From an uncultured Eubacteriales bacterium (GTDB lineage: Bacteria; Bacillota; Clostridia; Monoglobales; Monoglobaceae), in contig CAOKIL010000004.1 in the NCBI GenBank assembly GCA_948468535.1, positions 1 to 55,328 of the forward strand: a DNA stretch of 55,328 nt. Reading direction: 5' to 3'. The notes below the pieces were generated by a model. The model ran no database searches and was not told the origin of the DNA. It saw only the letters and a list, made by a program, of their open reading frames with translations. The translations under genes were made by a program, and so were the position numbers. This document shows positions 43,408 to 51,757 of the stretch, in pieces. Numbering within the stretch: position 1 is the first letter of the stretch; each line of letters begins with the position of its first letter.

Positions 43408-43938
43408 TTATATACCTCTTGTTAATTCATAAAAGTTACGCAATTCAGCTTTATCATCAAACATATCTTGATATATTTTCGTATCAACAAGCACAAATCC
43501 CGCTTTTTCGAGTGTCTTACATGACGCTTTGTTACTGACTGCCGGCGTTGCTATAAGAACATCAGCATCGTATTGTTGAAAAAAATACTTTGCAAACGCT
43601 TGAACAGCTTCTGCCATATACCCATGACTTCTGGAATTAGTGCCGAGAAAATAGCTGATGCCGACTTTCTGCATATCTTCATAGTACGAAGTGCCGACAC
43701 TTCCTATAGCATGACCACTGCTTTTCTCGTCAATAACAAACGCCAGATACGCATGATTCGGATTGTTCTCTGTCTCTAACTGTATACTTTCTTGAATCCA
43801 TTTTTTCATCCATTTATGACATTCACTGCAATCACCATAGATTTCAGTCAGGCTTCCGTCAGATGCCATTTCAATAAACGCCTGTTCGTCAGCTAATGTC
43901 AAACTACGGATTATTAGCCGTTTTGTTTCAATTCTCAT
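43408..43938 (-). CDS. GNAT N-acetyltransferase (RimJ/RimL type)
   Basis: 176 residues beginning RIETKRLIIRSLTLADEQAF, the RimJ/RimL-like start, with the acetyl-CoA motif GTNSRSHGYMAEAVQAFAKY and C-terminal NKASCKTLEKAGF. AGGAGAGAAGC precedes the ATG. It is the second gene of the first cassette (GrpB then GNAT); the junction with the GrpB gene carries the repeated motif TAACAAATTCCAA (43965-43977). The substrate is unknown. Confidence 0.88.
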   Translation of the reverse strand: MRIETKRLIIRSLTLADEQAFIEMASDGSLTEIYGDCSECHKWMKKWIQESIQLETENNPNHAYLAFVIDEKSSGHAIGSVGTSYYEDMQKVGISYFLGTNSRSHGYMAEAVQAFAKYFFQQYDADVLIATPAVSNKASCKTLEKAGFVLVDTKIYQDMFDDKAELRNFYELTRGI

Positions 43939-43974
43939 GCTTCTCTCCTATATATAAATATAAATTGGAATTTG

Positions 43975-44535
43975 TTAGTATCTGTTTCCGTATTTTAATT
44001 TTGCTTCATTTGTGTATTTTTGGACAAATTCAGTTTTTGCATTTGTATAGTCATCTCTGTTATGTTCAAATTTTTTCCACAGCGATAACTTCATTTTTTG
44101 GTATTCACAAGCAACATTCGGATGTTCAATAATGTAATCTCGGAAGTACAATTCATCATTGTCTCCAATGTATCTTAAATGTAAATGAAATACTTTCTCA
44201 GAAAATCCATTTTTTGTATATCCTTTATTAAAAGAAAGTCTATCTGCACTTTGACTCATACAGGTGTAGCCATTTTTTATTAGTAAATCTTTTGTAACCG
44301 TCAAATCGCATTCTTTTGGAACTTCCATAAGAATATCAACAATTGGTTTTGCCAATATAGAGCTTACTGCTGTACTACCTATATGGTTTATTCTGAAAGA
44401 TTGGGGAATGGCTTTCTCCAAAGCAGCTTTTTCATTATCATACCAATTTTTCCAACTGTCTTGATGTTCTGTTAAAAATATAGGAAATAACTGCCACAGT
44501 TCTTCTAAACTCATTTTTGATAGTTTTTTACCCAT
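43975..44535 (-). CDS. GrpB-family (UPF0157) nucleotidyltransferase-like protein
   Basis: About 186 residues with the family motif FRINHIGSTAVSSILAKPIVDILMEV, which resembles the nucleotidyltransferase GS...D.D core, and a C-terminal WKKFEHNRDDYTNAKTEFVQ. The family is often carried on accessory elements; biochemical role not settled. The start at 44535 follows GAGGTG; a start at 44547 is possible. First gene of the cassette behind leader copy 0. Confidence 0.85.
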   Translation of the reverse strand: MGKKLSKMSLEELWQLFPIFLTEHQDSWKNWYDNEKAALEKAIPQSFRINHIGSTAVSSILAKPIVDILMEVPKECDLTVTKDLLIKNGYTCMSQSADRLSFNKGYTKNGFSEKVFHLHLRYIGDNDELYFRDYIIEHPNVACEYQKMKLSLWKKFEHNRDDYTNAKTEFVQKYTNEAKLKYGNRY

Positions 44536-44549
44536 TGCACACCTCATCA

Positions 44550-44632
44550 ATTCCGATTTGTCTATTATATAATCATACCACAACTATCGTCAAAATTCAA
44601 TTATTAATAATACAAAAATGGGTGTTTAGGAC
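44550..44632 (-). repeat. Cassette leader repeat, copy 0 (promoter plus partial palindrome)
   Basis: Shares with copies at 46513-46594 and 51186-51267 a ~50-bp block containing a minus-strand promoter (TTGAAT 44600-44595, 17 bp, TATGAT 44577-44572) and the AATCGGAAT end just before the gene. Beyond it is AAAAATGGGTGTTTAGGAC (44614-44632), matching the palindrome arm of the other copies at 17 of 19 positions. Only a short inverted repeat (ATGGGTGTT/AACACCCAT, to 44652) remains instead of the full palindrome. Confidence 0.75.
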
Positions 44633-44665
44633 TTTCATCTTATAACACCCATAATTACCATTACC

Positions 44666-44685
44666 ACATGATGCTAGCACCATGT
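44666..44685. repeat. Imperfect palindrome
   Basis: ACATGATGCTAGCACCATGT is palindromic except for one A/C pair, lies 46 bp after the 2H phosphoesterase stop, and has no U-tract. It could be a binding site; unexplained. Confidence 0.3.
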
Positions 44686-44731
44686 CATTATATAATTAAA
44701 AAAAATCAGTTTCCTATTCATACTGGATTTC

Positions 44732-45268
44732 TCAATTCAAATCTATCGTAAAAATCTCCTCTACCGGAAAAGTTATTTTAACCAATCCTATTGCAGTAAA
44801 TTCGCCACTCATCTTTTTAAATTCGCGCAATAATAAATCACTTGCCTTAAAAAAAGCCTCATTGTCATCCTCGCTAGTAAGTGCTATCGTACAATGCGGC
44901 ACCCATCGATTCGGACAATACCACTCCCAACCATTTATATCAAAATCTCCTAAGCACTCATGTAACTCTCGCTGGAATTGATACATACTGTTATTCATTA
45001 CGGGCGATACAAAAATTGTCTTCGTATCATTAAACATTCCAACAGAGCCAATATAGGCAGGCATAGTTTTATGGTTTTGCGCAAAGACCTTTAACTGTTC
45101 TATACACTGAGATTCATCTACATCATTAAAACAAGCTAATGTAAGATGTGGTCTTGTTTTCCATTCCAAAAACTTTGTGCTGATTTTTTCATCAGCAATT
45201 CTTTTGGTTAAATTAAAAAGTTTCTTTTCTGTTTCTTTGTCATAATATAATTCTATTGCATACTGCAT
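44732..45268 (-). CDS. 2H phosphoesterase (2'-5' RNA ligase-like)
   Basis: About 178 residues with the two diagnostic HxT/S motifs: RPHLTLACF near 45 and WVPHCTIAL near 124. The 2H superfamily hydrolyses or forms 2',3'-cyclic phosphodiesters of RNA or nucleotides; the cell substrate is unknown. The ATG at 45268 has AAGGATG upstream and is preferred to 45286. In the accessory array. Confidence 0.87.
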   Translation of the reverse strand: MQYAIELYYDKETEKKLFNLTKRIADEKISTKFLEWKTRPHLTLACFNDVDESQCIEQLKVFAQNHKTMPAYIGSVGMFNDTKTIFVSPVMNNSMYQFQRELHECLGDFDINGWEWYCPNRWVPHCTIALTSEDDNEAFFKASDLLLREFKKMSGEFTAIGLVKITFPVEEIFTIDLN

Positions 45269-45280
45269 AATAACATCCTT

Positions 45281-45295
45281 CATCATTCCCGCTCG
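45281..45295. repeat. Possible attachment-site-like repeat, left copy
   Basis: CATCATTCCCGCTCG matches CATCATTCCCACTCG at 46931-46945 in 14 of 15 positions, in direct orientation. It overlaps the extended start of the 2H gene. With the TAGTATC pairs inside (45396-45415 and 46855-46874) it could mark the ends of a small integrated element. A short match like this can also arise by chance. Confidence 0.3.
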
Positions 45296-45395
45296 GCAAA
45301 GTTTTCTTAATACTAAAATATTTGTTTAGCGTTTCATAGATTTTAGCGTATATTTTATACCTAATATCCATATTATTTTACTCTATTCAGTTTCT

Positions 45396-45415
45396 TAGTA
45401 TCAAAATAGTATCAC
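45396..45415. repeat. TAGTATC double repeat, left copy
   Basis: TAGTATC-N4-TAGTATCAC, also found at 46855-46874 in the same orientation. Repeated heptamers near element ends can be recombinase arm sites; here this is inference. Confidence 0.4.
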
Positions 45416-45492
45416 ATAAAATCAATACATAATATAATCTTTTGACATTATCTATAATACCATATATTCTATCAAAATACAAGGTTTGTATA

Positions 45493-45954
45493 TCATAAAT
45501 ACAGCTCCATTTCATTTTCTTTTTTGATAAATCCTCGTTCTGTATATAATTTCTTCCATTACTCACTACTATTGAGCCATAACCTTTTTATGTTATTTTT
45601 TTGACTATACTTAATAATATTATCTAAAATTTGATTTGCAAAACCACACTTTCTAAATTGCGGAGAAGTATATATGTTTAATATATAGCCCTCTAATCCA
45701 CTTAAATTTTCTTTATACGGAATACGAGTAAATAGACATAAAGAACCTATGGCAACAAGTTTTTCTTTTTGGAATATCCCCCAGCAAATTAAATCTTTAT
45801 TTATATGCGACAAATAGTATTGCTTGGTTGCTGATTTCAATTCGTAAATATCCTCGTATTTACTGACTTCACCTAATTCCTCAAACAGCTCTATTCTTAA
45901 ACGCCAAACATCATCTGCCGATTTCTCATCTAATCTTAAAATATCACTTCCCAT
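45493..45954 (-). pseudogene. GNAT acetyltransferase broken by a stop codon
   Basis: Starts MGSDILRLDEKSADDVWRL and runs through the acetyl-CoA motif TSPQFRKCGFANQILDNII to LWLNSSE, where TAA (45561-45559) interrupts the frame. The next 21 codons stay in frame and give the expected GNAT end (KLYTERGFIKKENEMELYL), finishing with TGA at 45495-45493. A single nonsense change has therefore removed the last strand and helix. It is the second gene of cassette A. Confidence 0.85.
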
Positions 45955-45987
45955 AACGTGAACACCTCTCACTCAATTTGGAATTTG

Positions 45988-46497
45988 TTAATGCTGTATG
46001 ACATAACGATAATGTGGCATATCTATACCCCGATAATGCTTTGTCCAAATATCTGTTATTGTCATACCATTTCTAATAGCTAAATTTTGAGAGGCAATAT
46101 TCGTATCTCTAATGATAGAGCATACTTCATCTGCCTTTAATATTTCAAAAGCATATTTTTTACAAGCCTTTGCTGCTTCTATTGCATAACCTTTATGCCA
46201 ATATAACCTGTTGAAAAGATAACCTATTTCAAGCACTTCTATTTCTTTCCATGGTTGCATTGTAAGTCCGCACTGACCTATCATTTCATCGGTTTCTTTT
46301 AAAATTACTGCCCATAAACCAAAATTCCATTTTTGATAACGGAAAATCTGTTTATCAAGCCACTCTTGTACTTCATTATCGCTGAATGCTCCCTCATATG
46401 CATACATTGTATATTCATCTTGTAAGATTTTGCACAAAGAATTAAAATCTGCTTGATTCATCTCTCTCATATACAATCGTTCCGTTTCAAGTATCAT
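45988..46497 (-). CDS. GNAT N-acetyltransferase (RimJ/RimL type)
   Basis: About 169 residues: MILETERLYMREMNQADF at the start, acetyl-CoA motif NRLYWHKGYAIEAAKACKKY, and NLAIRNGMTITD. It resembles ribosomal-protein or small-molecule acetyltransferases. GGGGG lies before the ATG at 46497. First gene of cassette A, directly behind leader copy A; its stop codon lies in the junction repeat TAACAAATTCCAA (45978-45990). Confidence 0.87.
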   Translation of the reverse strand: MILETERLYMREMNQADFNSLCKILQDEYTMYAYEGAFSDNEVQEWLDKQIFRYQKWNFGLWAVILKETDEMIGQCGLTMQPWKEIEVLEIGYLFNRLYWHKGYAIEAAKACKKYAFEILKADEVCSIIRDTNIASQNLAIRNGMTITDIWTKHYRGIDMPHYRYVIQH

Positions 46498-46512
46498 ATT
46501 TACCCCCAATAA

Positions 46513-46770
46513 ATTCCGAATTGTCTACTATATAATCATACCACAAATACAGGCAAAATTCATTATTATGAAATAAAAAATGAGCATTTAGGACTTGATT
46601 TTGAAGAATATCCGCATAAGCTATATTACCTTGTTCAATTATGAATTTGAACATATAGCTTTTATGCGATTTTCATTGTCCTAAACGCCCATTTTTATAT
46701 TAAGATTTATAATGCCTTCTCTTTTATATACAATCGTTGAATATACGATTTCCTCCGCCTGTGCATTTAT
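46513..46770 (-). repeat. Cassette leader repeat, copy A (promoter, palindrome, tnpV end)
   Basis: Homologous along ~260 bp to 51186-51440. From gene to distal end: promoter block (ATGAAT 46563-46558, 17 bp, TATGAT 46540-46535); a 121-bp palindrome with 19-bp arms AAAAATGAGCATTTAGGAC (46576-46594) and GTCCTAAACGCCCATTTTT (46678-46696), with nested CCGCATA/TATGCG and TGTTCAA/TTGAACA; then the 3' end of a tnpV gene. Arm mismatches against copy B show that the copies have diverged. Confidence 0.85.
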
Positions 46771-46772
46771 AA
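46697..46772 (-). pseudogene. tnpV 3'-end fragment
   Basis: Translates as NAQAEEIVYSTIVYKREGI, against KAQTEEIVYSTIVYKRKTL at the end of the complete tnpV at 51377-51757. Only about 22 codons remain; everything upstream has been replaced by the sequence holding the 46784-46819 terminator. Confidence 0.8.
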
Positions 46773-46783
46773 AAAAACGAAAA

Positions 46784-46822
46784 AATACCACTGAAAACGG
46801 TAAAGTTTTCAGTGGTATTTCT
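46784..46822. terminator. Strong hairpin terminator
   Basis: Perfect 15-bp stem AATACCACTGAAAAC/GTTTTCAGTGGTATT with loop GGTAAA. T-rich on both strands, so orientation is undecided; it would insulate cassette A from the DUF6414 operon. Confidence 0.85.
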
Positions 46823-46854
46823 ATATAGTCAGTATTATCGGCTCATAATACAAA

Positions 46855-46945
46855 TAGTATCATTTTAGTATCACAAGCTGTTTTCAACCCTTAAAAAGTC
46901 AGTGTTTATGCGACTTTCAAGGTTTTATGACATCATTCCCACTCG
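46855..46945. other. Possible recombination scar (TAGTATC repeats and guaA-end-like site)
   Basis: TAGTATC-N4-TAGTATCAC (46855-46874) is followed by CATCATTCCCACTCG (46931-46945). On the minus strand the latter reads GTCGAGTGGGAATGA, i.e. codons VEWE and a stop, like the 3' end of guaA, a known integration site of genomic islands. No guaA gene body and no intact integrase are present. The rest of 46,820-47,068 holds nothing else I can support. Confidence 0.35.
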
Positions 46946-47068
46946 ACTTCTGATAAATCAACCTTAAACAATTTTGTATGAGTGATTTATCACGGAGTAT
47001 TTACATTTCTTGTATTATTCATTTATTTTTCACTATCTAATTTTTCGTTGCCATATTGTTGCCACAAA

Positions 47069-47884
47069 TTATTGATATACTGCGATAGGGATTATCACCA
47101 TGGCTGGCCCCTTTATAACATCTCGCATAATATCAGGATTATCCATATTTTTAGGCATTTTCCTGCGTTGTTTTCGGTTAAGCGGCATACTTTTTATGTC
47201 ATCAAAAAGCTCATCAAGTTTGACACTACTGCCTTTAGGAATTTTCCGTAGAATTTTACACAAAACATATGCTTGGCCTACAAAGTTATCTTGTTCACAT
47301 CTAAAATAACTTTCATCTAAATAGGCAATTAGAGGGTACTTTCCATCATTGAATTCAAACACACATGAAATTTCTTTTTTTGAGCTTAACTTTCCAAGAG
47401 AGGAAAAGCCGTTTATTGCTTCAGTAGCTTCTTCATCAAGAATTTTTTGGTCAGTAATTCCTTGAATTACAGCAGCTAAGTCGGCAACTTTTTTCACACT
47501 ATCCGTGAGTTCCTTTGTTTTTGAAAATCGTGATGTTGTAAGAACTTCAATAAAATCGTCTCTATCCAATTCTTCATAAATTTCTTCTGTTAGAAACTCG
47601 TAATATTTTAACGATTCATCTTCACTTTCCGATTGCAAATATTTATATATTTTATCAAACTTTGCGGCATCGCTAATTTTTACTGAACGCTTTATTTCTT
47701 TAGAAGTTTTTCCGCTGTGTGAACCTTCTCTAGATACAATTTTCACACCAAGACTACCTTTAGCTGTATTTTCACTGCTGTTAGTAATCGCCTGTGCTTC
47801 TTCATAATATGTATATCCATCAATAGCAGAAATATAGTCTTCCACTATTTTTGTGTTTAGATAAAGGAAATTCCGCAATTTCAT
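47069..47884 (-). CDS. DUF6414-family protein
   Basis: 271 residues starting KLRNFLYLNTKIVEDYISAIDGYTY, the characteristic DUF6414-type start. The middle is helical (about 70-150) and the C-terminal third is beta-rich (VFEFNDGKYPLIAYLDESYF), ending in a basic stretch NRKQRRK and a hydrophobic tail. The family occurs in accessory and defence-associated contexts without assigned function. It lies 27 bp downstream of a nuclease-like gene on the same strand, so the two are probably one operon. Confidence 0.65.
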   Translation of the reverse strand: MKLRNFLYLNTKIVEDYISAIDGYTYYEEAQAITNSSENTAKGSLGVKIVSREGSHSGKTSKEIKRSVKISDAAKFDKIYKYLQSESEDESLKYYEFLTEEIYEELDRDDFIEVLTTSRFSKTKELTDSVKKVADLAAVIQGITDQKILDEEATEAINGFSSLGKLSSKKEISCVFEFNDGKYPLIAYLDESYFRCEQDNFVGQAYVLCKILRKIPKGSSVKLDELFDDIKSMPLNRKQRRKMPKNMDNPDIMRDVIKGPAMVIIPIAVYQ

Positions 47885-47911
47885 TAATTACACCTCGTAT
47901 AACCTAATATT

Positions 47912-48397
47912 TTAATCCTTTTTATAAATTACTTTCCCAGCTTCAATCAAAGCATTTGTAACCTGCAAATTATACGCACCAATTCTTGAGTGCCAGTGTT
48001 TATGTTTAAAAAAAGCTTCCCAATCGAGTTCTAAAATAAGTTCAGGTTGATACTTTTTGTCAAGTTTAATTATTACTACATATTCAAATAGCGGTTTAAA
48101 GGAACTGATATCTGCATCTTTTTCTATACCGTAAAAGGCTCCCGTTGTATTTGTAGTAATGCATTTGATTGAATACCTTTCGCCATTAACACTAATAGCA
48201 TCTATATTCTTAGTTGATGGTGGGGCAAATTGCAATTTGGGCAAACCTTTTGTTTTAGTATAATAATCGACAACAATGTATTCGCCCAAATCACCAGTAA
48301 CGTTTTTGGAACGAATCAGCTTATCTTCACGCATTTTGTTCAGCAATTCGCCATAAATTTGTATTAATTCCATATCTGAATATTTTGAAAAATCCAT
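47912..48397 (-). CDS. Probable PD-(D/E)XK nuclease-fold protein
   Basis: 161 residues. The order GDLGEYIVVDYY (helix with Glu), KNIDAISVNGERYSIKCIT (Asp, then a beta-strand with SIK in the place of the usual E/QxK) fits a restriction-endonuclease-like core as found in DUF6998-type proteins; the C-terminal half has FEYVVIIKLDKKYQPELILELDW. The catalytic Glu/Gln of the third motif appears replaced by Ser, so activity is uncertain. First gene of the pair with the DUF6414 gene. Confidence 0.5.
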   Translation of the reverse strand: MDFSKYSDMELIQIYGELLNKMREDKLIRSKNVTGDLGEYIVVDYYTKTKGLPKLQFAPPSTKNIDAISVNGERYSIKCITTNTTGAFYGIEKDADISSFKPLFEYVVIIKLDKKYQPELILELDWEAFFKHKHWHSRIGAYNLQVTNALIEAGKVIYKKD

Positions 48398-48535
48398 TAA
48401 CTCTAATCCTTTATTATTTATTTTGCAAATCCTCTATATTCATTATAATATCATAAAATTTGACAAAAATCAATGTATTAACAAGCTATATAAAAGAAGA
48501 TATGCAACTGCATATCTTCCTTATAAAATTTTGTA

Positions 48536-49348
48536 TTATTCCTCTAAACCATCATAACTCATAGTTCTAAATACTTGGCAATATTTCCCAAATCCGTCTT
48601 GCCCGATAACATACATATTCGGCATATAGCTCATTCTTGCTTTTGAATATACAATTCTTTCCAATCCATTATCAACAGCAGTATGATTGCTTAATGCCAC
48701 ATTGACTTGTTTTTCATCAGCTTTTTCAAGAAAATAATCCAATGATTTAAGATATTGTATTACACCGTGCTTTGTTCTCGGCGGTGTTGTTCCGCCCCAA
48801 AGTCCCGCCATATATGCTTTGCCGTTTTCCGTAACAGGAAATATATAGCTCAATCCGCCCGGAGTATGTCCCGGTGTACCGTAAGCATATATTGTTTTAT
48901 CGCCTAATGTTATGGTATCGCCATCTTTAATATAATTTGTTATATCATAATCTTTCCAAGTTTCAGGACGGTCAGGCTTTGTGTGGTGTTCTAACCAAAA
49001 AATATCGTCTGTTTCGGATAAATAGGTATTAACACCATATTCCTCAACAAACCACTTTCCGCAGCCTGTATGGTCGGTATGCCCATGTGTTAAAACTAAT
49101 TTTTTTATTGTATCAGCATTCCAGCCAATATCTTTGATTGCGTTTATTATGGCGTCAAATGCCTGCTTTGACGGCCATATAGCGTCTATCACAATCAATC
49201 CATCAGTAGTCTTTAATACAAAACAGTTTGTTTCTTTTTGAGCTATGATAAGCAAATCATCAAATATTTGTGCGTGGATAAACCACGACATATCTTCCAT
49301 ATTTTTAATTGTTTCTTTTGTTACGATTGGCTTATTTAACCTATTCAT
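48536..49348 (-). CDS. Metallo-beta-lactamase fold hydrolase
   Basis: 270 residues with the metal-binding signature LVLTHGHTDHTGCGKWF near 90, an Asp/His ligand region TPGHTPGGLSY and NHTAVDNG. A general MBL-fold hydrolase, not a classical beta-lactamase by eye. GAGGAGG precedes the ATG. Part of the accessory array; substrate unknown. Confidence 0.9.
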   Translation of the reverse strand: MNRLNKPIVTKETIKNMEDMSWFIHAQIFDDLLIIAQKETNCFVLKTTDGLIVIDAIWPSKQAFDAIINAIKDIGWNADTIKKLVLTHGHTDHTGCGKWFVEEYGVNTYLSETDDIFWLEHHTKPDRPETWKDYDITNYIKDGDTITLGDKTIYAYGTPGHTPGGLSYIFPVTENGKAYMAGLWGGTTPPRTKHGVIQYLKSLDYFLEKADEKQVNVALSNHTAVDNGLERIVYSKARMSYMPNMYVIGQDGFGKYCQVFRTMSYDGLEE

Positions 49349-49451
49349 TTATATCCTCCTCTGCACAATAAATTTATTTTTGCACAGAGGATAAACGGTT
49401 CTTTGGGTGTATGCGTAACATCATTTTCACGTTTTCACCTGCTTTCTATAT

Positions 49452-49885
49452 TTATTTTTCATATTGCATAGGTGTGTATCTTATACCGTTTTTTAATTGT
49501 TCCATATCCGTATCAATAAACCCCAACTTATGATAGATAGGTACAGCGTATGGAGAGGAATTGACCGTAATTATATTGTGAGGACTGCTGTTTTTAACAT
49601 ATTCCCATAGTTTCCGACCAATCCCCAGTCCTTGAAATTGTTCCTTTACAAAAAAGCAACAGATATGCTTTCTGTCATTTCTCGTGGCAATAACTCCTTT
49701 CAGCTCACCATTTTCATGCGCACCAAAAAATTCTATTTCTGACAGAATGTCTTTGTTATAAATAAACTCCTGAAACGATTTAACTCCATCAGGTGAATAA
49801 TCGGGAGCTTCAAATTTCAAAAATGTTTCCCATATCAGTTTTATGGCTTTATCAATTTTGAAACGTTAATTTTTTGTATTTTCAT
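49452..49885 (-). pseudogene. GNAT acetyltransferase with N-terminal frameshift
   Basis: A well-placed ATG at 49885 (after AAGGTG) starts MKIQKINVSK, then a one-base loss near 49850-49862 breaks the frame. The remaining frame IDKAIKLIWETFLKFEAPDY continues into a full GNAT body with QFQGLGIGRKLWEYV and VPIYHKLGFIDT, ending at 49452. A shorter product from a TTG at 49820 would lack the first strand, so I treat it as disrupted, though partial activity cannot be excluded. Confidence 0.75.
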
Positions 49886-49941
49886 ACCGTAAACACCTTG
49901 TTTCTTATCTGCTTGAAAAATTTTAGTATAAATTATTTACC

Positions 49942-50709
49942 TTATAATTCTTCTATTAGTTTAATAGCGGTTAAAATCATATTTGAACGCACACTCTCTT
50001 GCATATTCCAATTTCGAGAATCCCATACCTCTCCGCTTACATCATCGCCTGCATAAAGCAGCTGCGCTAAAGGAATATCATAATATTTAGACACAGCAAA
50101 AAATGCTGCCGCTTCCATTTCAACCGTTATGCAGCCTTCGCTTCTTCTCAACTCGACCATATCAGGTGTTTCTCTGTAAATAGCGTCTGATGTCCATGTT
50201 TTTCCTGTTGTAAATGGAATACCCATTTGTTTTAAACACGAAACAACAGTCTCAACTGTTTCTTTATGACATTCCACTTCATGTGACGGTTCTAAATAGT
50301 GGTACGATGTACCTTCATCTCTTACAGCCGCAACAGGAACGATAATTTCTCCTACTTTAGAATCTTTTTTTATCGAACCTGCACCACCGCATATTATAAA
50401 TTTTTTACATCCCATAGCATGCAGTTCTTCAAGCGTTACCGCCGCACCGGGCGCACCGCAAAATGCCATTGTAATGCAAATTCTTTCTGACGGTGTATAA
50501 TACTCATAGATAGGAATGTCTAAAACTTCAGAATGGAGATACCCGATTACGGAAAGCTTTTTATCTTCTACAAACTGATTAAGTTCTTTCCCCAAAAATG
50601 TAATGACGCATTTTTCGGGAAGTGTTTTTGCCAAAAAATCAGCGGCATTTATAATGGGTTTTCGACTTGTGTCATGCTCACAAACAGGATATTTATTCTT
50701 GATTATCAT
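49942..50709 (-). CDS. Nucleoside phosphorylase
   Basis: 255 residues with the phosphorylase family 1 motifs: KKFIICGGAGSIKKDSKVGEIIVP near 103 and VEMEAAAFFAVSKYYDIPLAQLLYAGDD near 195. It splits nucleosides with phosphate to base and ribose-1-phosphate; uridine-phosphorylase-like rather than PNP by pattern, but specificity is not decidable. GGAGGG precedes the ATG. Second gene of cassette B; an ACAACTTCCAAGTT element lies just upstream. Confidence 0.87.
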   Translation of the reverse strand: MIIKNKYPVCEHDTSRKPIINAADFLAKTLPEKCVITFLGKELNQFVEDKKLSVIGYLHSEVLDIPIYEYYTPSERICITMAFCGAPGAAVTLEELHAMGCKKFIICGGAGSIKKDSKVGEIIVPVAAVRDEGTSYHYLEPSHEVECHKETVETVVSCLKQMGIPFTTGKTWTSDAIYRETPDMVELRRSEGCITVEMEAAAFFAVSKYYDIPLAQLLYAGDDVSGEVWDSRNWNMQESVRSNMILTAIKLIEEL

Positions 50710-50757
50710 TTCTTATCCCTCCATAAAACTTGGAAGTTGTATTATTTAATAGCAATT

Positions 50758-51171
50758 TTATTTTCTATTTGGCTTTCTTTTAATTCTCAACAATCTAATA
50801 AAATCATTAAACAAAGAAGTATCTACTGGCTCAAACATTATCCATTTCCCATCGTGGTAAGTTTGAGCTTCGTCATATATTTCTTGAACCTCCTTTGAGT
50901 AATTTTCTCTATCTGTTTCAAATTTTAACCGTTCGTCTTTCCCTAAGATAATCATAAAACCCACACAGTTTTCTCTTACATATAATGCACATAGCGTTTT
51001 ACCGCCACGATGATATTTATATTTATATTTCCATGCTTTACCGCCTTTATTCCACAAACAATCCATATCATATTCTTCATCAATTAAAGTACATAACTTG
51101 TTCCATACATCATATAGAGATTTTCCAACTAAAGCTGTCATTTCTTCTTCGTTAGGTATCGTATTAAGCAT
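50758..51171 (-). CDS. DUF3788-family protein
   Basis: 137 residues: LVGKSLYDVWNKLCTLIDEEY, WKYKYKYHRGGKTLCALYVRENCVGFMIILGKDE, and a C-terminal YHDGKWIMFEPVD, as in DUF3788 proteins (YdhG-like fold). The ATG at 51171 follows AGGAGGG; the longer frame runs through the promoter and was rejected. First gene of cassette B behind leader copy B. Function unknown. Confidence 0.85.
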   Translation of the reverse strand: MLNTIPNEEEMTALVGKSLYDVWNKLCTLIDEEYDMDCLWNKGGKAWKYKYKYHRGGKTLCALYVRENCVGFMIILGKDERLKFETDRENYSKEVQEIYDEAQTYHDGKWIMFEPVDTSLFNDFIRLLRIKRKPNRK

Positions 51172-51185
51172 AATAACCCTCCTAT

Positions 51186-51440
51186 ATTCCGATTTGCCTA
51201 TAATATAATCATACCACAAATACAGACAAAATTCAATCCGTATACACAAAAAATGGGCATTTAGGACTTGATTTTGAATAATATCCGCATAGCTATATTA
51301 TCTTGTTCAATTCTACATTTGAACATATAGTATTTATGCGGTTTTCAGTGTCCTAAATGCCCATTTTATATTAAGTTTATAATGTTTTTCTCTTATACAC
51401 AATCGTTGAATATACGATTTCCTCTGTCTGTGCTTTTATA
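51186..51440 (-). repeat. Cassette leader repeat, copy B (promoter, palindrome, tnpV end)
   Basis: Promoter TTGAAT (51236-51231), 17 bp, TATGAT (51213-51208). Beyond it a 118-bp palindrome with perfect 18-bp arms AAAATGGGCATTTAGGAC (51250-51267) and GTCCTAAATGCCCATTTT (51350-51367), nested CCGCATA/TATGCGG and TGTTCAA/TTGAACA pairs, then the end of the complete tnpV gene. It is the best preserved of the three copies. Confidence 0.88.
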
Positions 51441-51757
51441 TTATTCATCAGACCAACCCATTTCATTTGGTTAGTGGCTTTTAACTGCTCTGTAACACCC
51501 TGCTTGTCTGCAAGTTCGGCAATCAGCCTATCAACCTCGTTTTTAGCTTTTGTATCAATTTTTTTAAGATATTCAAGCAGTGTTCCGTTTGCAAGCAGTA
51601 AAGAATAAAAAGCATTATGATGTTCCTTAATGAATTTCTTATGTAAGTTGCCATATTTCCCGATATTGTATCGCTTCTGTGGAACAGTTAAATTCGGGAT
51701 ATAATAATCTCCAACTTTAACATACTCAATTCCGTTTTCAACAAATCTCTCTTTCAT
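51377..51757 (-). CDS. TnpV-like transposon-encoded protein
   Basis: 126 residues with the TnpV pattern: GIEYVKVGDYYIPNLTVPQKRYNIGKYGNLHKKFIKEHH near the start, GVTEQLKATNQMKWVGLMNNIK and EEIVYSTIVY at the end. TnpV proteins are carried by clostridial mobile elements; their role is unclear. AGGAGG precedes the ATG. Located between the palindrome of copy B and the truncated Mob gene. Confidence 0.87.
   Translation of the reverse strand: MKERFVENGIEYVKVGDYYIPNLTVPQKRYNIGKYGNLHKKFIKEHHNAFYSLLLANGTLLEYLKKIDTKAKNEVDRLIAELADKQGVTEQLKATNQMKWVGLMNNIKAQTEEIVYSTIVYKRKTL

Follow-up and report, generated by a model that had tools for sequence, protein, structure and literature searches.

Gene-cassette capture is regarded as a speciality of integrons, mostly in Gram-negative bacteria, where promoterless single open reading frames (ORFs), many encoding small enzymes, are exchanged in tandem arrays behind one upstream promoter (intI, attI/Pc, attC). 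In the pdif (Xer) modules of Acinetobacter plasmids, genes lie between two inverted short palindromic sites (28 bp, with XerC and XerD arms and a 6-bp centre) and are shuffled without a recombinase of their own. In the Tn4451/Tn4453 family, tnpV is followed by cargo such as catP and the whole element is moved by TnpX, and putative mobile promoters are conserved promoters located ahead of unrelated genes. We analysed contig CAOKIL010000004.1 (assembly GCA_948468535.1, positions 1-55,328) of an uncultured gut Eubacteriales bacterium of the Monoglobaceae, a stretch of 55,328 nucleotides that we call the window. In the window, a ~50-bp promoter block precedes three unrelated genes (GrpB, GNAT and DUF3788) as part of a conserved leader, and each of these genes is headed by a short border motif, R, for which an inverted partner, L, was found behind ORFs here and in the genomes of other gut bacteria.

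The comparison of these borders suggests that the mobile unit is the downstream ORF bounded by R and L and not the leader. We therefore favour, at a probability of about 0.72, the reading that each joint in the window is a promoterless one-ORF cassette placed directly behind a fixed expression platform, i.e., an integron-like ORF cassette behind a promoter platform linked to tnpV. The leader ends in a distinct module of ~13 bp (GACAAATCGGAAT), which is border R at the 5' end of widespread promoterless one-ORF cassettes, and the 3' border L (ACAAATTCCAGTTT) is its inverted copy right after the stop codon. A cassette consists of R (GACAAATCGGAA(T/G)TTnTGGAGG, which includes the Shine-Dalgarno sequence), the ORF, the stop codon and L. 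The two borders are near-identical imperfect palindromes of ~16 bp in opposite orientation; R and the reverse complement of L have ACAAA(T/C)(C/T)GGAATTTGT in common and form inverted terminal repeats, as in a non-autonomous transposon or miniature inverted-repeat transposable element (MITE) with a passenger gene.

Among 391 genomes of the class, the R pattern RACAAATCGGAANTTNTGGAGG at up to one mismatch gave 16 matches in 14 genomes, and the reversed control pattern gave none. Each match immediately precedes an ORF, or a contig end that follows closely, except at locus L167, where the match lies within coding sequence. The R-headed ORFs come from unrelated families (SnoaL, methyltransferases, VOC, GNAT and others). 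At these loci the inverted partner L reads AACAAATTCCAGTTTGTCGGG, immediately 3' of the stop codon, and it was present at a distance of no more than 50 nt in 12 of the 17 R-headed ORFs and in 6 of the 604 other ORFs (Fisher p 1.8e-17), a comparison that overstates independence because all 17 + 604 ORFs come from loci picked for R and three of the loci, L181, L218 and L196, hold the same cassette. Loci found later (L248, L250, L252, L255 and L260) have the same R/L arrangement, which is not clear at L251. The ORF at L260, which was found after the motif had been fixed, is the same as the last gene of the array at L183 and carries R and L in different flanks. In the L183 array itself (contig C19 of genome G195), L-spacer-R sites of ~75 bp recur between four to five small ORFs, and this array would serve well as a model locus.

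The same ORF was found downstream of different DNA, with identity beginning at the R motif, in L165 versus L181 and in L168, L169 and L175. L196 and L181 share a 469-bp SnoaL cassette that extends from GACAAATCGG to TTCCAGTTT at ~99% identity, with GACAAAT at its 5' end and CCAGTTT at its 3' end, and both of its flanks are unrelated. Loci L181, L218 and L255, in turn, are copies of one conjugative-element backbone, whose flanks by the site are 96-97% identical between L181 and L255 and 91-97% identical between L181 and L218. Between the left junction (GGGGCA followed by GACAAATCGG) and the right junction (TTCCAGTTT followed by AACGAACAGG), this backbone holds SnoaL in L181, Imm70 in L255 (PF15601, 6.9e-53) and SnoaL with three further genes in L218. 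Judging from these alignments, the ORF has been exchanged while the borders stayed at the backbone site. R and L borders thus occur in the window and elsewhere, the same cassette is found in unrelated flanks, and varied cassettes or arrays are found between the same flanks. No target-site duplication is apparent at L181 (GGGGCA/AACGAA) or L196 (GTGAGC/GCCAGT), as judged without an empty site for comparison.

These features can be put together as follows. The platform, consisting of the tnpV 3' end, a hairpin terminator and a strong promoter, would stay fixed; its promoter would drive the first cassette ORF, later cassettes would follow in the same operon, and the hairpin would end tnpV transcription. 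A site-specific recombinase would act at R and L, and a cassette would be excised as a circle with a junction of CCAGTTT to GACAAATCGG. The three platform copies in the window may have arisen through duplication or separate acquisition. By their anatomy, the window, L102/L196, L039 and L169 appear to hold promoterless one-ORF cassettes behind a common upstream promoter.

All three platforms of the window lie on the minus strand. The promoter block TTGTGGTATGATTATATNNTAGNCAANTCGGAAT is present at 44550-44583, 46513-46546 and 51186-51219 with 0 mismatches each, in a scan that tolerated up to three and gave no match in shuffled sequence (chance expectation 0). An earlier note on this DNA, which had placed one promoter block before GrpB, GNAT and DUF3788, was correct in this respect. 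The promoter-like elements of copy 3 (51208..51236) are a -35 TTGAAT and a -10 TATGAT spaced by 17 bp. Identity between copies 2 and 3 is 87% across ~260 bp, from the 5' untranslated region (5'UTR) through a palindrome into tnpV 3' sequence, and their alignment confirms that palindrome and tnpV end are joined to the leader at GNAT and DUF3788; for copy 1 the identity is ~80% over 93 bp. In copy 3, the 118-bp palindrome (51250..51367, 18/18 bp arms) is followed upstream by a gene for a Tn4451-type TnpV (51377..51757; PF14198, 9.3e-40). Copy 2 retains the palindrome (46577..46695, each arm with one mismatch to the consensus) and a 55-bp tnpV 3' remnant (46717..46771) that is 89% identical to 51386-51440. 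At copy 1, tnpV sequence was not seen, and in contrast to the earlier note, which had left it a single palindrome arm, this copy keeps a shorter hairpin of its own (44618..44652) with 9-bp arms, ATGGGTGTT at 44618-44626 and AACACCCAT at 44644-44652. The hairpin is located between the promoter and the tnpV sequence, or its place, in all three copies. The large palindrome is part of the tnpV side rather than of the cassette, and probably serves as the tnpV terminator. One arm of it also stands alone near a contig end of the same genome (C69; L013, 8529-8577), with neither tnpV nor promoter, and may be an independent repeat. The homology among the leaders stops within the 5'UTR, just ahead of the ribosome-binding site; the cargo does vary, as had been noted, but the end of the shared block is not at the start codon.

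Downstream of each platform, R opens the first gene (at 44562, 46525 and 51198, reading down), and L-type sites after GrpB, GNAT and DUF3788 form the joints to each second gene. Behind platform 1, the GrpB ORF (43975..44535; PF04229, 3e-43) is bounded by R at 44541..44562 (GACAAATCGGAATTGATGAGGT) and by L at 43956..43976 (TAACAAATTCCAATTT, one mismatch in the L core), and is followed by a GNAT ORF (43408..43938, PF13302). Behind platform 2, the GNAT ORF (45988..46497; PF13302, Acetyltransf_3, 7.6e-30) has R at 46504..46525 (GACAATTCGGAATTTATTGGGG, four mismatches to the consensus) and L at 45969..45989 (TAACAAATTCCAAATT). The sequence TAACAAATTCCAA(T)TT spans the stop codons of both GrpB (43976) and GNAT (45989). 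Behind platform 3, the DUF3788 ORF (50758..51171; PF12663, 2.1e-37) has R at 51177..51198 (GGCAAATCGGAATATAGGAGGG) and then a looser L-type site at 50718..50740 (ACAACTTCCAAGTTTTATGGAGG, three mismatches to the L core), beyond which lies a nucleoside-phosphorylase-like ORF (49942..50709, PF01048). The second gene of pair 2 is another GNAT ORF (45559..45954), which appears to carry a frameshift near its C-terminus (region 45490-45560), judging from an intact 153-aa homologue of 77% identity in genome G017. Each first gene is followed by a second small enzyme gene, as had been proposed, and Pfam assigns the three as GNAT, GNAT and a nucleoside-phosphorylase-like protein. All of these genes and borders are on the minus strand. 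Each gene pair would therefore be a short array of cassettes that is expressed from the leader as its platform.

Between 43 and 52 kb, 31 R or L cores (up to three mismatches) were counted, compared with 6.8 in mononucleotide shuffles, an excess that is partly an effect of repeats and low complexity. The GrpB cassette aligns at 72% with a copy in genome G396, which belongs to another family; the aligned sequence spans exactly R to L, and the flanks are unrelated. In G017, the homologue of the second GNAT gene has different neighbours, with an R-headed VOC ORF next downstream.

The earlier note had taken the leader as a mobile cassette leader, and its proposed check was a wide search for further copies with varied cargo. 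Outside its own genome, the leader gave no match in an exact-spacing, indel-free pattern scan of 11.3 million genome contigs, in the 391 class genomes at up to three mismatches, or in blastn searches of the genus and the order; family-wide blastn returned only chance-level pieces of 22-46 bp outside that genome. It was likewise absent from viral contigs (two pattern scans) and from plasmids and phages (blastn), so that the check brought no copy beyond the genome of origin. Relatives of tnpV are present in 140 of the 391 class genomes, and neither 19 tnpV relatives nor the 136 tnpV loci of a survey showed this leader downstream; we therefore rejected tnpV as its constant partner. The stretches shared downstream of the surveyed tnpV loci are mostly coding. 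The single surveyed pair that shares a short non-coding hairpin-promoter is L039, on a C. coli plasmid, and L042, of Pusillibacter, which have different cargo and are 94% identical over 130 bp up to a sharp end; a shorter stretch is common to L102 and L111. The L039 and L042 platforms are independent of the window and, with one hairpin and promoter ahead of differing cargo, favour the cassette reading. The order at L039 is a recombinase gene, tnpV, the hairpin, the promoter and an R-headed ORF, and in L102 and L039 the motif at the end of the window leader recurs in the cargo 5'UTR, as ACAAATCGGAAGTTATGGAGG or ACAAATCGAAAGTTGTGGAGG. The constant leader, the interchangeable cargo, the cassette-like behaviour and the two genes per unit of the earlier reading stand, but the leader as the moving part is not supported.

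The idea that the promoter, palindrome and tnpV end form a mobile promoter or MITE inserting before different genes draws on the three copies before unrelated genes, the long inverted palindrome arms and the lone arm on C69. We consider it very improbable, since the leader with its promoter and palindrome was seen only in its own genome and is not supported as a widespread mobile unit, no target-site duplication was seen, the block common to the leaders has its end within a motif that is part of the cassette at other loci, and R heads GrpB in G396 without the promoter. The window resembles the putative mobile promoters in having a conserved promoter before unrelated genes, but here the promoter has not spread and the gene moves. 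Alternatively, a tnpV-leader-gene unit may have been duplicated twice within the island, with the downstream genes replaced later by ordinary recombination. The copies are indeed found only here, on one strand within 7 kb, their 80-87% identity fits old duplicates, and remnant tyrosine-recombinase integration sites indicate a much rearranged island. Such duplication would account for the platforms, and as their origin it is compatible with the cassette reading, but it explains neither the R/L borders in other genomes nor the exact ORF exchange in L181, L255 and L218; as the whole explanation it is quite unlikely. A true integron, in which neighbouring L and R would form folded attC sites for an IntI-type integrase, appears about as improbable as a mobile leader. 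It would fit the tandem arrangement of promoterless one-ORF cassettes after a single promoter, the reverse complementarity of L to R and the ~75-bp sites repeated in L183. In contrast to integron cassettes, however, the host is a member of the Clostridia, both ORF ends carry inverted ~16-bp palindromes, and the 3' end has no complete attC with a crossover at the outer R' box. We do not class the R/L system as an integron because no integrase match (TIGR02249) exceeded the cut-off in the 14 carrier genomes, the exchange point lies between L and R rather than at the outer end of the site, and six sites (L-spacer-R or joined) have folding values close to those of shuffles (z 0.0 to -1.9), which gives no support to attC-like folding. 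The weak TIGR02249 matches in the carriers are generic tyrosine recombinases that were equally found in controls.

The main rival of the cassette reading is ordinary recombination between short conserved borders, in which R and L would be selected functional sequences (a ribosome-binding-site stem, an operator or a terminator) and exchange would proceed by homologous recombination. R does hold a Shine-Dalgarno sequence, both borders are palindromic, L directly follows the stop codon, and no recombinase was found. This explanation is nevertheless unlikely, because the borders recur at unrelated genes across families, 598 of the 604 neighbouring ORFs lack them, and the same ~99% identical cassette in unrelated flanks breaks at both ends. 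Several points weigh against the cassette reading itself. R and L are short, and exchange may have occurred by homologous or illegitimate recombination. No recombinase acting at them has been identified; an integron integrase over the cut-off was found in 0 of the 14 carriers, several of which are incomplete, and an integrase might be supplied from elsewhere. A search of viral contigs for a clean empty site found none, and a strict full L-R pattern gave no match there either. The window borders are degenerate (R with 4-6 and L with 6 mismatches), and the cassette copies there are possibly relics. In the class, close homologues of the window GNAT and DUF3788 genes occur without recognisable R/L, and the case for a cassette is therefore strongest for GrpB.

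Among the other described systems, pdif modules share the inverted orientation of the flanking sites, but the R/L cores are shorter, overlap the stop codon and the ribosome-binding site, and have no likeness to dif that we recognised. As in Tn4451/Tn4453, the tnpV gene adjoins the cargo promoter at copy 3 and its remnant does so at copy 2; to our knowledge, no one-ORF cassettes with R/L ends have been described in that family. An ORF for a TnpX-type large serine recombinase was not seen in the part of the window that was read (40-55.3 kb, the contig ending at 55328), where no search was aimed at it. A GA-core large-serine-recombinase model for the cassette was set aside because no GA stands at the 3' junctions.

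The surroundings of the platforms contain further features. Between platforms 2 and 3 (47069-49820) are DUF6414, DUF6998-like, metallo-beta-lactamase-fold and GNAT ORFs with no clear R/L borders. On the minus strand, an integration core of the guaA-3'-end type occurs in two direct copies (46931-46944 and 45281-45294; GAGTGGGAATGATG and GAGCGGGAATGATG), which are accompanied by arm-like TGTGATACTA repeats (46855-46875 and 45396-45416) and enclose a 1.65-kb segment with platform 2 and both GNAT genes. This segment is likely a remnant of an integrative element, since in relatives this core is found both at guaA and next to a tyrosine recombinase.

Some R-headed ORFs adjoin known resistance genes on Campylobacter and C. 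difficile plasmids. At L249 (3400-4052) and L250 (1272-1400), the truncated remnant of an R-headed AAA-ATPase ORF is fused to the upstream side of aadE-sat4-aphA-3 on Campylobacter plasmids and of aph(3')-IIIa/cfr(C) on C. difficile pCd13_cfrC; the 5' sequence shared by these resistance loci is due to this common ATPase. We rejected aadE, sat4 and aphA-3 as cassettes themselves because R there belongs to the fused remnant. Downstream of tet(O) on pTet of C. jejuni 81-176, a hypothetical ORF (L248, 3252-3721) has R-like and L (one mismatch) borders.

We found no description of such cassettes in the open-access literature; subscription papers were outside its scope, and a prior description is possible. 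The cassettes are akin to known gene-cassette capture, and a separate system is a real possibility. We tentatively propose, at slightly less than even odds, that Clostridia and their conjugative elements have a gene-capture system of their own, unrelated to integrons, with one-ORF cassettes between inverted ~16-bp borders, a dedicated putative recombinase, tnpV-linked platforms and occasional spread to Campylobacter and Enterococcus plasmids. The border motif offers a direct handle for listing cassettes and for seeking the recombinase. A second capture system in the dominant gut Firmicutes, if true, would account for the accumulation of small detoxifying and modifying enzymes on the conjugative elements of these bacteria.

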